NCBI RefSeq assembly: GCF_904842695.1
Contig: NZ_CAJGWQ010000018.1
Location: forward strand, 1 to 37,384
From: Gulosibacter hominis
Lineage (GTDB): Bacteria; Actinomycetota; Actinomycetes; Actinomycetales; Microbacteriaceae
DNA length: 37,384 nt
Direction of reading: 5' to 3'
Part shown: positions 29,183 through 34,596 of the stretch, piece by piece
Layout: each line of letters opens with the position of its first letter
Position numbering within the stretch: position 1 is the first letter of the stretch
The notes under the pieces: generated by a model
Databases searched by the model: none
Told to the model about the DNA's origin: nothing
The model's input: only the letters and a program-made list of their open reading frames with translations
Position numbers and translations under genes: made by a program

Positions 29183-30288
29183 AGTGTCAGCCCCGCAGCT
29201 ATTGCCCACTCAGCGTAAAAAATTGCCAGCCCGAGCACCGCGAGCAGGCCTCCGATAATCCAGAACCGCACCACCACGTTTTGCTCGGCCCAGCCTTTGA
29301 GTTCGAAGTGGTGGTGAATGGGTGACATGAGGAAGATGCGCTTGCCCTTGGTCACCTTGAAGTAGGCACGCTGCACGATGACCGAACCGGTCTCAATCAC
29401 GAACAGCCCGGCGATCACCACGAGCAGCAGTTCGGTGCGAGTCATGATCGCGAAGGCGGCCAGTGCGCCACCGAGCGCGAGCGAACCGGTGTCACCCATG
29501 AAAATTTTCGCCGGTGAGGTGTTCCACCACAGGAACCCGACGAGCGACCCCACGATAGCCGCCGCCAAAATCGTCATATCGAGCGGCGCGTGCGCCTGAT
29601 AGCAGGCCTGTGCGACATCGGGTGACAGCCGGGGCGTATCGCACTGCTGGTTGAACTGCCAGTAGCCGACAACACCATAGGTACCGATCGCAAAAATGGA
29701 TGCACCGGTTGCCAGCCCGTCGAGACCATCGGTGACGTTCACGGCGTTCGAGGTTGCGGTGGTGATGAACACAATCCAGAGCACCACCAGCACTGTGCCC
29801 GCCACAGCACCCAGCATGAACAGGTCGATGGGGGTGTCACGAATCACCGAGATAGCGCTCGAGATCACCGGCACATCGTTGGCGTTGACGAATTGCAGCC
29901 CAATCAGCGCAAAAACTGCGGCCACAATCACCTGACCAAAAATTTTTTGCCAGCCGCCCAGACCGAGTGACTGGTGTTTGCGCACCTTGAGGAAATCATC
30001 CACGAACCCGATCACGGCGTGGCCCACCATCATGAACATCGCCAAAAGGCCGGTTGCAGTGGGGCCCTCTCCGGCGGTGTACACGGCAATGAAATAGGCG
30101 ATCACCGAACCGAGCACGAAAATCACACCGCCCATAGTGGGGGTGCCTCGTTTCGCGTAGTGCTCTTTGGGGCCGTCTTCACGGATGTACTGTCCCCAGC
30201 GCAGCCGGTTGAAGACCTTAATGAACACCGGCGTGAGGAAGAGGGTGAACAGCAAACCGATCGCGCCGGCCAGCAGAATGGCGATCAC
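29179..30288 (-). CDS. mraY: phospho-MurNAc-pentapeptide translocase MraY
   Basis: Attaches phospho-MurNAc-pentapeptide to undecaprenyl phosphate, forming lipid I in the membrane. The 369-residue product has about ten transmembrane segments. Catalytic motifs are visible: GFVDDFLKV near 92, NVTDGLDGLATG near 183, FMGDTGSLALGG near 262, and the HHHFELKGW motif near 325. The start is GTG at 30288, overlapping the murF stop in GTGA. The overlaps on both sides mark tight translational coupling. Confidence 0.96.
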   Translation of the reverse strand: MIAILLAGAIGLLFTLFLTPVFIKVFNRLRWGQYIREDGPKEHYAKRGTPTMGGVIFVLGSVIAYFIAVYTAGEGPTATGLLAMFMMVGHAVIGFVDDFLKVRKHQSLGLGGWQKIFGQVIVAAVFALIGLQFVNANDVPVISSAISVIRDTPIDLFMLGAVAGTVLVVLWIVFITTATSNAVNVTDGLDGLATGASIFAIGTYGVVGYWQFNQQCDTPRLSPDVAQACYQAHAPLDMTILAAAIVGSLVGFLWWNTSPAKIFMGDTGSLALGGALAAFAIMTRTELLLVVIAGLFVIETGSVIVQRAYFKVTKGKRIFLMSPIHHHFELKGWAEQNVVVRFWIIGGLLAVLGLAIFYAEWAIAAGLTL

Positions 30289-31694
30289 GCAGTAGTTCCT
30301 TTCACAAACTCGGCAATTCGGTCACCGAGCGCGAGCAGCCCGGCAGAGTTCGATGATTTCACAAGCACAAGATCCCCGGGTTGCAGGTAGCTTTCGAGAA
30401 ACTCAAGTGCGGCATCGGCATCGGCAGCAAAAGTTGCTTCATTATCCCAGCTGCCCTGCGCCACCGCGGCGAGGTAGAGCGGCCGAGCCGCCTGCCCCAC
30501 AACCACGGTCTGAGTGATCCCCAACCGTACCGCGAGCTCACCGAGCCGATCGTGTTCTTGTACGTGCAGATCACCGAGTTCACTCATTTCGCCCAGCACC
30601 GCGACGGTGCGTTGGCCGGGCTTGGCGATCTGTGCGAGTGTGCGTAGCGCCGCTCGCATCGAGTCGGGATTGGCGTTATAGGCGTCGTTGATCACCGTGA
30701 TCGGTTCGCGAACCAGCAGCTCCATGCGGCCACGCTCGGCGCGCGTGACCTGTTCAAGCGTGGCCACGATATCCGGCACCGCGATTCCTTCCGACCACGC
30801 CGCGGCGGTGGCGGCCAGCGCGTTCATCACGTGGTGTTCACCGATCACGGCAAAGTGCACCCGCACCGGTTCATGGTCGGGAACGTGCAGCGTGAACTCG
30901 GTGCCCTGCTGCCCCACCGTGACCTCTGTGGCACGCACCTGGGCGTCCTCCGAGCGACCAAAGGTGATCACGCGGGCCGCTGTCAATTCGGCCATTGCCA
31001 TGACGCGCGGGTCGTCAGCGTTTAGCACGGCGACGCCGTCTTCCTGCAGTGCCCGCACCATCTCTGATTTGGTGCGGGCAGTTGTTTCAATGCCACCGAA
31101 CTCGCCGGCGTGGGCGAGCCCGACCACGAGCACAATGCCCACATCCGGTCGCGCCATCCTGGTGAGCCGGGCAATTTCGCCCTCGGCACTCGCTCCCATT
31201 TCGGCTACGAGCGTGTCGGTGGATGCATCCACCTTGAGGAAGGTCACCGGCGCACCCACCTCGTTATTGAACGATTTGATCGGGGCAACAACATTGCCGT
31301 GCGCACCAAAAATTGCCGCCAGCAGGTTTTTGGTTGTGGTCTTGCCGTTTGAGCCGGTGACCGCAACCACCCGCATCCGGCCCAGTGACCGCACGTGTTC
31401 TACCACGACGCGAGCCAACTCTCCCAGTGCGACGACCGTGTCGGTCACCACAATCTGCGGCACATCCACGTCGAGTTCACGTTCGACGACGCACACGGCA
31501 GCGCCAGCAGCGGCTGCCTGCGGCACGAAGTTGTGGCCGTCGGTGTGTTCACCCGGTTTTGCAAAAAAGATGTCACCGTTGCCGATATTGCGCGAGTCGG
31601 TATCACACACACCGCACACGGTCTGCTCCGGGTCGGCTCCGACCAGCCGGCCGGTCATGGCTGCGGCTATGTCGCCAAGTCGCATTTCGATCAT
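30285..31694 (-). CDS. murF: UDP-MurNAc-tripeptide--D-alanyl-D-alanine ligase
   Basis: Adds D-Ala-D-Ala to complete the pentapeptide. The 469-residue product has the N-terminal substrate domain with DSRNIGNGDIFFA (residues 32-44), the ATP loop VTGSNGKTTTKN near 114, KSFNNEVGAPVTFL near 138, NADDPRV near 215, the MurF marker INDAYNANPDSM near 332 and the terminal VLVKSSNSAGL. All catalytic elements are intact, in contrast to the murE-like gene just upstream, with which it shares an ATGA overlap. It requires a tripeptide substrate, so an active third-residue ligase must exist in the cell. Confidence 0.96.
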   Translation of the reverse strand: MIEMRLGDIAAAMTGRLVGADPEQTVCGVCDTDSRNIGNGDIFFAKPGEHTDGHNFVPQAAAAGAAVCVVERELDVDVPQIVVTDTVVALGELARVVVEHVRSLGRMRVVAVTGSNGKTTTKNLLAAIFGAHGNVVAPIKSFNNEVGAPVTFLKVDASTDTLVAEMGASAEGEIARLTRMARPDVGIVLVVGLAHAGEFGGIETTARTKSEMVRALQEDGVAVLNADDPRVMAMAELTAARVITFGRSEDAQVRATEVTVGQQGTEFTLHVPDHEPVRVHFAVIGEHHVMNALAATAAAWSEGIAVPDIVATLEQVTRAERGRMELLVREPITVINDAYNANPDSMRAALRTLAQIAKPGQRTVAVLGEMSELGDLHVQEHDRLGELAVRLGITQTVVVGQAARPLYLAAVAQGSWDNEATFAADADAALEFLESYLQPGDLVLVKSSNSAGLLALGDRIAEFVKGTTA

Positions 31695-32785
31695 GCCAGT
31701 GTGCCTTTCGGTTCCGGTTCGGAAGGGTTCGGGGATGCGGAGATATCGCCCGCGGATGCCGGCCGGGGAATAATGCCCCTCAGGTCAAGACCATCGTTGC
31801 GGTCGAATGCATCCTGGAGCTGTTCAAGCGCCCAGCCCGCCTCATCCAGGGCAACGAGCGCGAGTGCCAGCACGGTGCGCGCATCCTCGGCGTTTTCGGT
31901 GTGCACCACCGTTGACACGATCCGGTCGTCGCGGCCGCGAAGCGTGAAGCGACCGGCATGATCAATACGTGCTTGCCAGTCGGCGGGGGTGACGCCGAGC
32001 CCGACGGTGGTTACCGGAACCCGCGATTCTTCGACCGCGTGGGTGGCAAGCGCGTCATTGACCAGTACCACTGCGCGCCGCGAGTGGTCGGGGCTCATCG
32101 CGTCGGCGAGCATTGCTTTTGTGCGCGGTTCATCTGCGAGTCCGCCACAGTAGGTCACCACATCGATTTCGACCTCATCAAGGTGATGGCCAGCCATCTC
32201 GTCGCTGGAAAACTCAAATACGGCGGTATCGACGCGCATTTCGCGCAGTCTCGCCAGCAGAGCGTGCAAATCGTCGGCTCGTGCGGGTGAGGCGATGCTC
32301 GCCGCGTCCTCATCGTTGATGCGCGCGACTGACGACTCCATGAGTGCCCGGTACTGCCCGAGCAGTGCCAGCACCGCGTCGGCGCAGCGCGCGACGGCCC
32401 CGCGCTGTGGACCGCCGAGGGTCACGAGCATCCGGAAGTCGTGCTCAGCGGTGCGATATACCCAGGATGCGATTGGGCCAAGCGCAAGCGCGGGGTCGCT
32501 CACCACCAGCATCGGTACATCCACATTCGGTTCGGGGATGCAGTGCGGTGCGGCGATTACCGCAACGGCGCCCCGCTCGACCGCTGCGGCAATTGCGTTT
32601 GCCTCGCTGCCGGCTGGGTCGATGGCGATGTAGAGGTCGCCGGCACGGGTCGTTTCGACGCGGCTGGTCACGCCGGTTACCTCGATCTGGTCGAGGTCGG
32701 CGTCGCTTTCCAACCCGAAGTGTGCGCACAGCTCTGAGAGCTCACGAGCGGCCTGATGGTGGGGACGTAAAGAAGATTCGGACAT
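31691..32785 (-). CDS. truncated, catalytically dead MurE-like protein
   Basis: It sits in the murE position between ftsI and murF. Residues 34-110 match the MurE N-terminal domain (EVTGVTS, RAGDLYIAI, ERGAVAVIA, SWVY), and 168-300 match parts of the central domain (DLHALLARLREMRVD, FEFSSDEMAGHHLD, TKAML, VPVTTVG). The ATP loop expected at about 121-131 as VTGTNGKTT reads VTLGGPQRGAV, and the NLSQDHLDFHG motif is gone. The C-terminal ligase domain is absent: the protein ends after 364 residues with a Pro/Ser-rich tail, against about 500 in MurE. The ATG at 32785 is used here; a TTG at 32809 overlapping the ftsI stop (TTGA) is an equal alternative. The open frame and the coupled murF overlap suggest it is still translated. 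It cannot be a working ligase; its role is unknown. Confidence 0.8.
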   Translation of the reverse strand: MSESSLRPHHQAARELSELCAHFGLESDADLDQIEVTGVTSRVETTRAGDLYIAIDPAGSEANAIAAAVERGAVAVIAAPHCIPEPNVDVPMLVVSDPALALGPIASWVYRTAEHDFRMLVTLGGPQRGAVARCADAVLALLGQYRALMESSVARINDEDAASIASPARADDLHALLARLREMRVDTAVFEFSSDEMAGHHLDEVEIDVVTYCGGLADEPRTKAMLADAMSPDHSRRAVVLVNDALATHAVEESRVPVTTVGLGVTPADWQARIDHAGRFTLRGRDDRIVSTVVHTENAEDARTVLALALVALDEAGWALEQLQDAFDRNDGLDLRGIIPRPASAGDISASPNPSEPEPKGTLA

Positions 32786-32805: not shown

Positions 32806-34596
32806 TCAATAACGCGCGTCAATTTCGGGATAGGGCTCAGGTGACGGCGGAACCTGATACTTTGCGAGCACATATGACATGGTCTGTTGCCAGGCAACCG
32901 GAGTTGACCCGGAACCGGTGACCATCCTAGTCGGCCGGTACATGCCCACGAGCACGGCGAACTGCGGATCGTCTGCCGGGGCGAGTCCAGCCATCGTGGT
33001 GTAGTAGGTGCCCTGGTAGTAGGTGCCGGTTTCGGGGTTCACGGTCTGCGCGGTACCCGATTTAGTTGCCACCCGGTATCCGGGAACGGCCAGGTCTTCA
33101 TGGCCGGGGGCCCGCGCCATCGCTTCCATCCCGTCAATCGCCAGCCGTGCGGCTTCGGGCGACACAACCTGCACCGACTCACCGCCGGGGATTTCCGTGA
33201 GCGTTCCGTCTTCTTGGCGGCAGCCGCGCACGAGTTTGAGTGGTAGCCGTTTGCCGCCGTTGCCGATGGCCTGATAGGCGCTGGCCATCTGGGCGGCGGT
33301 GGCGGTGAGACCCTGTCCAAACATCACGGTGTAGTTGGTTTGGCTGTCCCAGTCTTCCGGGGCGTGCACGGTTCCGGCGGCCTCACCGCTAAACCCGACG
33401 GCGGTCGGCTCGCCGAGACCGAATTTGCGCATGTAGTCGTAGCGCACCTCTCGCGAGAGCCGCGACCCAAATTCTGCCGTACCGACGTTGGACGATACCG
33501 CGAGCACACCGTTGAGGTTCATCTCAATCGGCGCGTGTGACTCGTGGTCACCGAAACTGGCGTCGTCATGCGGCCACTGGTCGGGCACGGTGATGGTTTC
33601 GTGCGGGTCCACCTTGCCCTGGTCGTAGAGCATGGCCGCGGTGAGCGGTTTCATGATCGAGCCCGGTTCGAGCGCGGCACCGAATGTGCGGTTACCACGA
33701 TCATCAGGATTGGCGTCAGTGGGCACGTTCGGGTCGACGGTTGGATACTCGGCGGCAGCAATGATTTCACCGGTTTTTACATTGACCACGGTGATTGTGC
33801 CGTACTCAGCCTGCTGATAGGTGACTTGCTCGGCGAGAATCTGCTGCACGCGATATTGCACATCGCTGTCGATGGTGAGCTCAAGCGTGCCGCCCGGACG
33901 CGGTTTTTCGACCGTGACCACGGTGCCGGGAATGGCGACGCCGTCGGCCGACCGCTCGTACATCTCTTTTCCGTTCGCACCGGCAAGGCACTTGTCGTAC
34001 TGCAGTTCAAGCCCGGCCAGGGGTTCTCCAGCAGCGTCACTGAACCCAACGATATTGCCTGCAACCGCACCGGCTGGATAGCTGCGCTTGGGGTGCGGCT
34101 GCGGGTATACCCAGGGGATGCGGAGCTTACGGATTTCTTGATACTGCTCGAGCGGCACCATCCGCGCCAGATATGCGAAGTTTGCGTCGGGGTCTTCGGC
34201 CAGGATTGCGTCGATTTCGGCACGCAGGGTCTTGGCATCCTGACCGGTGATTTTGGCGATCCGTTGAAGCGAATCATCGACCGTCACGACTTCGGTCTCG
34301 CCGGTTTTGGGGTTCGAGCGGTTGAAGTCGACCATGTTCACGGGCGCGATGGTGATATCGAAGCGATCGACCGAGGTGGCCAGTGGCCTACCTTCGGCGT
34401 CGACGATTGAACCGCGCGTGGTCCACAGCGAGTTGACGACACCGCGCCGGCCGTCAGCTTCTTCGTTGATGGCGGCAGCGCTGAGCACCTGCAGGTCGAA
34501 TAGTCGTCCACAGAAGATGACCAGCATCGTAATGATGAGGCCAAGCGGCACGATAAGCCGCCATTGACGCTCTCGCCGGTGACGCTTACTCTTCAC
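32806..34596 (-). CDS. ftsI: septal transpeptidase FtsI (class B PBP)
   Basis: Crosslinks septal peptidoglycan as partner of FtsW. The 596-residue product has a basic N-terminal tail, one transmembrane segment (about residues 13-33), a dimerisation/pedestal domain (about 55-235) and the transpeptidase domain. The three active-site boxes are visible: SIMK (nucleophile Ser, in EPGSIMKPLT near 313), SSN (VSSNVGT near 371) and KSGTAQ near 515. No PASTA domains follow. The start is GTG at 34596, close behind GGAG. A 118-nt gap with a small hairpin separates it from ftsL. Confidence 0.95.
   Translation of the reverse strand: MKSKRHRRERQWRLIVPLGLIITMLVIFCGRLFDLQVLSAAAINEEADGRRGVVNSLWTTRGSIVDAEGRPLATSVDRFDITIAPVNMVDFNRSNPKTGETEVVTVDDSLQRIAKITGQDAKTLRAEIDAILAEDPDANFAYLARMVPLEQYQEIRKLRIPWVYPQPHPKRSYPAGAVAGNIVGFSDAAGEPLAGLELQYDKCLAGANGKEMYERSADGVAIPGTVVTVEKPRPGGTLELTIDSDVQYRVQQILAEQVTYQQAEYGTITVVNVKTGEIIAAAEYPTVDPNVPTDANPDDRGNRTFGAALEPGSIMKPLTAAMLYDQGKVDPHETITVPDQWPHDDASFGDHESHAPIEMNLNGVLAVSSNVGTAEFGSRLSREVRYDYMRKFGLGEPTAVGFSGEAAGTVHAPEDWDSQTNYTVMFGQGLTATAAQMASAYQAIGNGGKRLPLKLVRGCRQEDGTLTEIPGGESVQVVSPEAARLAIDGMEAMARAPGHEDLAVPGYRVATKSGTAQTVNPETGTYYQGTYYTTMAGLAPADDPQFAVLVGMYRPTRMVTGSGSTPVAWQQTMSYVLAKYQVPPSPEPYPEIDARY

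Follow-up and report, generated by a model that had tools for sequence, protein, structure and literature searches.

The closest described relative of the gene considered here is MurE, the uridine diphosphate N-acetylmuramic acid (UDP-MurNAc)-L-Ala-D-Glu:diamino acid ligase (TIGR01085; M. tuberculosis 2wtz/2xja, M. thermoresistibile 8g6p). We have analysed a stretch of 37,384 nucleotides of Gulosibacter hominis DNA (contig NZ_CAJGWQ010000018.1, hereafter the window) in which the gene flanked by ftsI and murF, in the division and cell wall (dcw) cluster, encodes a protein that differs from this ligase in having no P-loop, DHLD motif, catalytic lysine or C-terminal ligase domain. An earlier description from the sequence alone (the sequence-only reading) had recognized it as MurE-like and as lacking the ATP loop, the DHLD motif and the C-terminal domain, and our analysis confirms it.

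The phenomenon is larger than the window: a dead MurE, recurrent and under selection. We think it fairly probable that it is a retained pseudoenzyme that arose by subfunctionalisation, a second MurE having taken over the chemistry and the dcw copy being left with a non-catalytic role of older date. Retention of a dead copy suggests that MurE has a job unrelated to its chemistry. The finding bears on whether the Mur ligases form a physical complex, as active, dead and missing copies occur naturally at this locus and set catalysis apart from a structural role, if there is one.

A MurE-derived protein without catalytic residues

In profile searches the window gene scored 44.4 bits, below the MurE threshold (TIGR01085 cut-off 257.3). 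The P-loop motif GTxGKT reads LGGPQRGA in the gene's own frame, and neither the DHLD histidine nor the carbamylated lysine of the central domain, both of which we take to be functional residues of MurE, is present. The frame stops after domain 2, so that the C-terminal domain with the DNPR-type amino-acid site is gone. The structure prediction suggested in the sequence-only reading gave a confident model (predicted local distance difference test, pLDDT, 84), in which domains 1 and 2 fold as in MurE. The catalytic residues have been lost while the fold stays, as befits a pseudoenzyme. A sequencing or frameshift error was considered and set aside as unlikely; the open frame, the high-confidence model and parallel losses in eight relatives speak against it.

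An active third-residue ligase had been expected elsewhere in the genome, and a genome search found one. The sole match above the MurE cut-off in the window genome (G000; 367.8 bits) is a complete MurE of 518 amino acids with GTDGKTT, NLSQDHLDDY, the catalytic lysine, DYGHTP, FGADGDRD and DYNPR. It is unlinked to the dcw cluster and lies close to genes that, by reading of the sequence, appear to encode ribonucleotide reductase.

Repeated inactivation and purifying selection within Gulosibacter

A MurE copy occupies the dcw slot in all 11 genomes of our sample of Gulosibacter (Microbacteriaceae). It is intact in two (G001, G. bifidus, and G010), where no other MurE scored above the cut-off, and degenerate in the remaining nine, each of which has one or two complete MurE elsewhere. 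The asparagine of GTNGK, the DHLD histidine and the catalytic lysine are lost in all nine degenerate copies (that of G008 was read from two contig-end pieces over which the gene is split), and the lysine and threonine of GKT are retained in eight, being gone only in the window species. A degenerate C-terminal domain is still present in G003, G006 and G007 and absent from the other six. The frames of G004 and G008 finish with EAGW, a sequence also present in intact dcw copies, which suggests that an internal stretch was deleted in frame.

A further MurE-like gene above the cut-off was seen in 5/11 genomes (Table 1). In two of them (L033, L034) the DNPR site reads, by eye, EDDLK, and their substrate may differ.

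In the species tree (FtsI and MurF, 836 columns, the ten Gulosibacter genomes other than G008) dead G003/G006/G007 form the sister group of the active pair G001/G010 (99/97), which lies well within the genus, and the tree of MurE copies agrees on this main point (99/94). A single inactivation, with all dead copies in one clade, was rejected on FtsI and MurF (approximately unbiased, AU, test, p 0.00076) and marginally so on domains 1 and 2 of the dcw copies (p 0.043). If such a loss is taken as irreversible, this implies at least three inactivations, in G000/G004, G002/G005/G009 and G003/G006/G007; regain in G001/G010 by recombination may be an alternative to separate losses. The second MurE copies of Gulosibacter and of g65, another genus, group together in a single clade (100/100, 16 rows), which makes the two-copy state older than Gulosibacter. 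The MurE-copy tree was built without G103 and without 6 of 23 extra loci (from G013, G026, G027, G047, G082 and G088), which failed the motif filter; G094 (68% complete) is included, yet shows no dcw copy.

The ratio of nonsynonymous to synonymous substitution rates (omega) was fitted on domains 1 and 2 (337 codons) along the species topology. After inactivation it was 0.063, 0.042 and 0.068 in the three dead clades (for the third, G004 and partial G008 were used and G000 was treated separately) and 0.070 on active branches. Fixing omega at 1 on the dead clades worsened the log-likelihood (lnL) by 179, 284 and 77, and equating dead and active omegas cost 3.8 lnL for three parameters. In the least saturated pair, G006/G007, omega was 0.062 for the dcw copy (twice the lnL difference, 267) vs 0.020 for the second MurE, and 0.104 for the degenerate domain 3; the pairwise results exclude three fits of domain 3 that failed to converge (omega 20). 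The dead dcw MurE family is thus held by strong purifying selection after each inactivation, like the active copies. The alignment of relatives and the dN/dS estimates proposed beforehand therefore upheld retention of the dead copy: no match in the 11 genomes contains an internal stop, and omega (0.04-0.07 after inactivation) is far below 1, which rejects simple decay.

What the dead copies keep

As a reference we have used the 27 active-site and 62 other positions at which 17 active dcw-type MurE do not vary. Among the dead Gulosibacter copies, the seven full ones (the window copy counted apart, partial G008 out) keep 86/189 active-site cells and 349/434 of the others, the window copy keeps 4/27 and 38/62, and a dead pair from the genus g60 keeps 35/54 and 116/124. 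Along the protein, conservation among seven dead copies (here with G000 and without G007 and G008) was highest in residues 1-25 (0.74), then in 101-125 (0.65) and 26-50 (0.57), vs 0.36-0.52 in stretches with active-site motifs. The active copies come from several genera and the dead ones from a single genus, so that absolute levels cannot be compared between the two sets; nor are the cells independent, and Fisher p values computed on them are therefore no true probabilities. Domain 1 was more alike than domain 2 in five of six dead pairs vs none of seven active or second-copy pairs, pairs that share species. Along these lines, an RPxH motif lies near the N terminus of every dcw copy read (11/11 in Gulosibacter, 9/9 in g65, 7/7 in g60), and was found in 0/9, 0/8 and 1/3 of the further, non-dcw copies of the same genera. 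Such a pattern, without amounting to proof of contact, would be expected had the chemistry passed to the second copy while a contact surface at the N terminus was retained in the dcw copy.

The slot in other genera

In a sample of 80 genomes, slot copies were sought among the matches listed, so that weak ones could be missed. In the genus g65 the dcw copy is intact in all nine full copies, the tenth (G103) being cut. Two of nine g60 genomes (G069, locus L073, and G092, locus L072) have a second MurE, which belongs to another clade, together with a full-length degenerate dcw copy; six have only an intact dcw copy, and G094 only the second type. Each of the five g6 genomes has a complete MurE elsewhere; the slot is empty in G015, one genome gave no match, and the slot frames of the other three are open for 339-408 codons, stop to stop.

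One g65 genome has a third MurE (L084), which groups with the third copy of G048. The MurE of a metagenome-assembled genome (L042, M67) has an unusual amino-acid make-up and a long branch, with its main motifs intact.

Proposed role and alternative explanations

In the sequence of events that we propose, the ancestor of Gulosibacter and g65 would, from the tree, have carried a pair of complete MurE ligases, of which one lay in the dcw slot and the other outside it, and the tripeptide ligase reaction would have passed to the latter. The catalytic and amino-acid sites of the dcw copy then disappeared in no fewer than three lineages of Gulosibacter, in two of the three together with the entire C-terminal domain, and the dead copies were kept under purifying selection. 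As the copies died in parallel, with one and the same fold and the same N-terminal segments preserved, the non-catalytic role most simply predates inactivation and would already have been held by the active dcw MurE. The dead protein probably has a docking or scaffolding role: the N-terminal domain may help to bring together proteins such as MurF, FtsI, MurG, division proteins or a kinase around the place where the precursor is made, without any chemistry. That an ancestral function of this kind, docking in the wall or division machinery and separable from the chemistry, can by itself preserve a dead copy after a second MurE has freed the dcw gene, and did so at least three times in Gulosibacter as well as in two further genera of Microbacteriaceae, is a broader and more tentative proposal, which we hold to be somewhat less probable than its contrary.

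Several observations weigh against subfunctionalisation and a docking role. Many branches are saturated, and stem omegas lie at the bound on near-zero lengths. The protein branch of G000 is 1.56 for the dcw copy vs 0.27 for MurF, 0.41 for FtsI and 0.47 for the second MurE. In a survey of 14 genomes with unlinked MurE (G025, G030, G062 and G085 lie outside it) the slot is empty in 13, from 12 genera, the fourteenth being G088; the slot gene can therefore be deleted, and the non-catalytic role either is not general or stays with the single MurE there. Seven of ten g65 genomes have a second MurE with the dcw copy still intact, so that a second copy permits inactivation and does not force it. The three g6 slot proteins consist of degenerate domains 2-3 without domain 1, which argues against a common role of domain 1, and in the g60 dead pair domain 1 (0.70) is not better kept than domain 2 (0.72). 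Finally, contacts between Mur proteins were not found in the assay of PMC3605390, as far as the portion of that article available to us goes.

The frame might be kept only for ribosomes to reach murF, as a translated spacer that ensures coupling and avoids polarity, with an inert product. The ATGA overlap with murF in G000, G002 and G009, the near overlap in G004 and G005, the lack of stops in any copy and the retention of a different gene part in g6 would all suit such a spacer. It nevertheless predicts an omega of about 1, which was worse by 77-284 lnL; murF starts about 50-60 bases downstream, without overlap, in G003, G006 and G007, and 13 inspected genomes manage without any slot gene, all of which makes it improbable. 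Somewhat less improbable, albeit still unlikely, is that the family is functional and the window copy is in terminal decay, constraint having been lost late on the G000 branch. This copy has the longest branch (2.01 and 2.05 in two further trees), belongs to the only species without GKT and keeps fewer non-active-site invariants than the seven others. Its branch is saturated (free fit omega 0.036, length at bound), and omega was 0.52, 0.25, 0.15 and 0.07 at fixed lengths of 3, 6, 10 and 20. Anchor lengths of about 6 from MurF and FtsI and 10.5 from the second MurE give about 0.15-0.25, above the 0.057 of MurF and 0.086 of FtsI on the same branch. Against decay, omega 1 over the entire (saturated) branch was worse by 12.5 lnL, 364 codons are open with a confident model, and in simulations with 0.5 neutral draws per base an open frame survived in 1 of 200 cases. 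The window copy is the most eroded member of the family and under weaker constraint; it is relaxed, but hardly neutral over the whole branch.

A protein that still binds UDP-MurNAc-peptide, as a sensor or buffer whose substrate level is reported or regulated, seems slightly less likely again than the spacer. Six UDP-MurNAc-site residues, part of the set in the portion of PMC9434261 available to us and mapped by motif rather than structure, are all kept in three active copies. Five are kept in G003, G006 and G007, which also have the GKTS loop, four in G004, and three in partial G008. The g60 pair keeps two each, the window copy and G002 one, and G005 and G009 none; the P-loop is also gone in the window species. 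With the binding residues mostly lost in several dead copies, precursor binding is hardly their common role, and the binding that the sequence-only reading had suggested, as an alternative to scaffolding, for the window protein is unlikely, five of six tested residues being lost. An altered, active ligase with its C-terminal domain supplied in trans would fit the MurE fold of domains 1 and 2 and the GKT of eight of nine dead Gulosibacter copies; with the catalytic lysine and DHLD histidine absent from all nine, and no need for it given the complete MurE, we give it hardly any credit.

The suggested link to B-type peptidoglycan is likewise not shown by the data: the DYNPR amino-acid-site motif occurs in both active dcw copies and all nine second copies of Gulosibacter, and 13 inspected genomes have an unlinked MurE and an empty slot. 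There was no sign of a switch of wall amino acid between the two active MurE types of the genus, which have DYNPR in common. Among the Microbacteriaceae MurE copies read, the DNPR motif is DYNPR, DFHPR, DHHPR or DHHSR, variants that may track the amino acid at position 3 of the wall peptide.

Coordinates of the features

Table 1. Location of the dead MurE, its parts and neighbours in the window, and of MurE-like genes elsewhere
Feature	Location	Strand	Remarks
MurE-derived dead protein	31691..32785	-	364 codons + stop; domains 1 and 2 only
Domain 1	32441..32785	-	about residues 1-115; border from alignment and model; holds the conserved N-terminal RPHH...RELSELCAHFGLE segment and the ALGPIASWVYRT helix
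Domain 2	31760..32440	-	about residues 116-342; fold of the central ATPase domain, from which P-loop, DHLD and catalytic Lys are gone
Former P-loop	32396..32428	-	residues 120-130, LVTLGGPQRGA
ATGA overlap, stop codon/murF start	31691..31694	-	
murF	30285..31694	-	three of three Mur ligase Pfam domains above cut-offs
ftsI (penicillin-binding protein)	32806..34596	-	upstream neighbour; name from position and sequence reading
Complete second MurE, window genome	G000:C6:17906-19333		
Further MurE-like gene	G002:C18:184888		
Further MurE-like gene	G004:C34:72063		L033
Further MurE-like gene	G005:C1:2504256		
Further MurE-like gene	G008:C215:1182		L034
Further MurE-like gene	G009:C49:56267		
Third MurE, g65	G102:C17:56108-57634		L084
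g6 slot protein	L054:3221-4189		
g6 slot protein	L114:1465-2688		
g6 slot protein	L115:2010-1009	-	

Comparison with known systems

No earlier account was found in the parts available to us of the literature on Mur ligase pseudoenzymes, murE paralogues and the Microbacteriaceae dcw cluster or B-type peptidoglycan. The series of active, dead and absent copies makes the proposed role testable on a gene whose loss should leave tripeptide synthesis intact. It is also a warning for annotation and drug-target surveys, as what stands in the murE position is not necessarily MurE.

The PAP11/MurE-like subunit of the plastid-encoded RNA polymerase (8r6s, 8xzv) resembles the window protein in fold only. 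Unlike the latter, PAP11 matches the whole of MurE including the C-terminal part, and it belongs to another complex, in the plastid; most seed-plant PAP11/MurE-like proteins retain DNPR, according to the accessible portion of PMC9434261. The same portion describes PpMurE2 of the moss Physcomitrium, likewise one of a duplicated MurE in which one copy serves wall chemistry and the other is suggested to do otherwise; it differs in keeping its diaminopimelate-binding residues and in being a plant nuclear gene. In Bordetella pertussis a MurE-MurF fusion with MurG as scaffold is part of a complex, as stated in what was available of PMC6420597, and there, in contrast to the window protein, two complete ligases are fused into a bifunctional enzyme.
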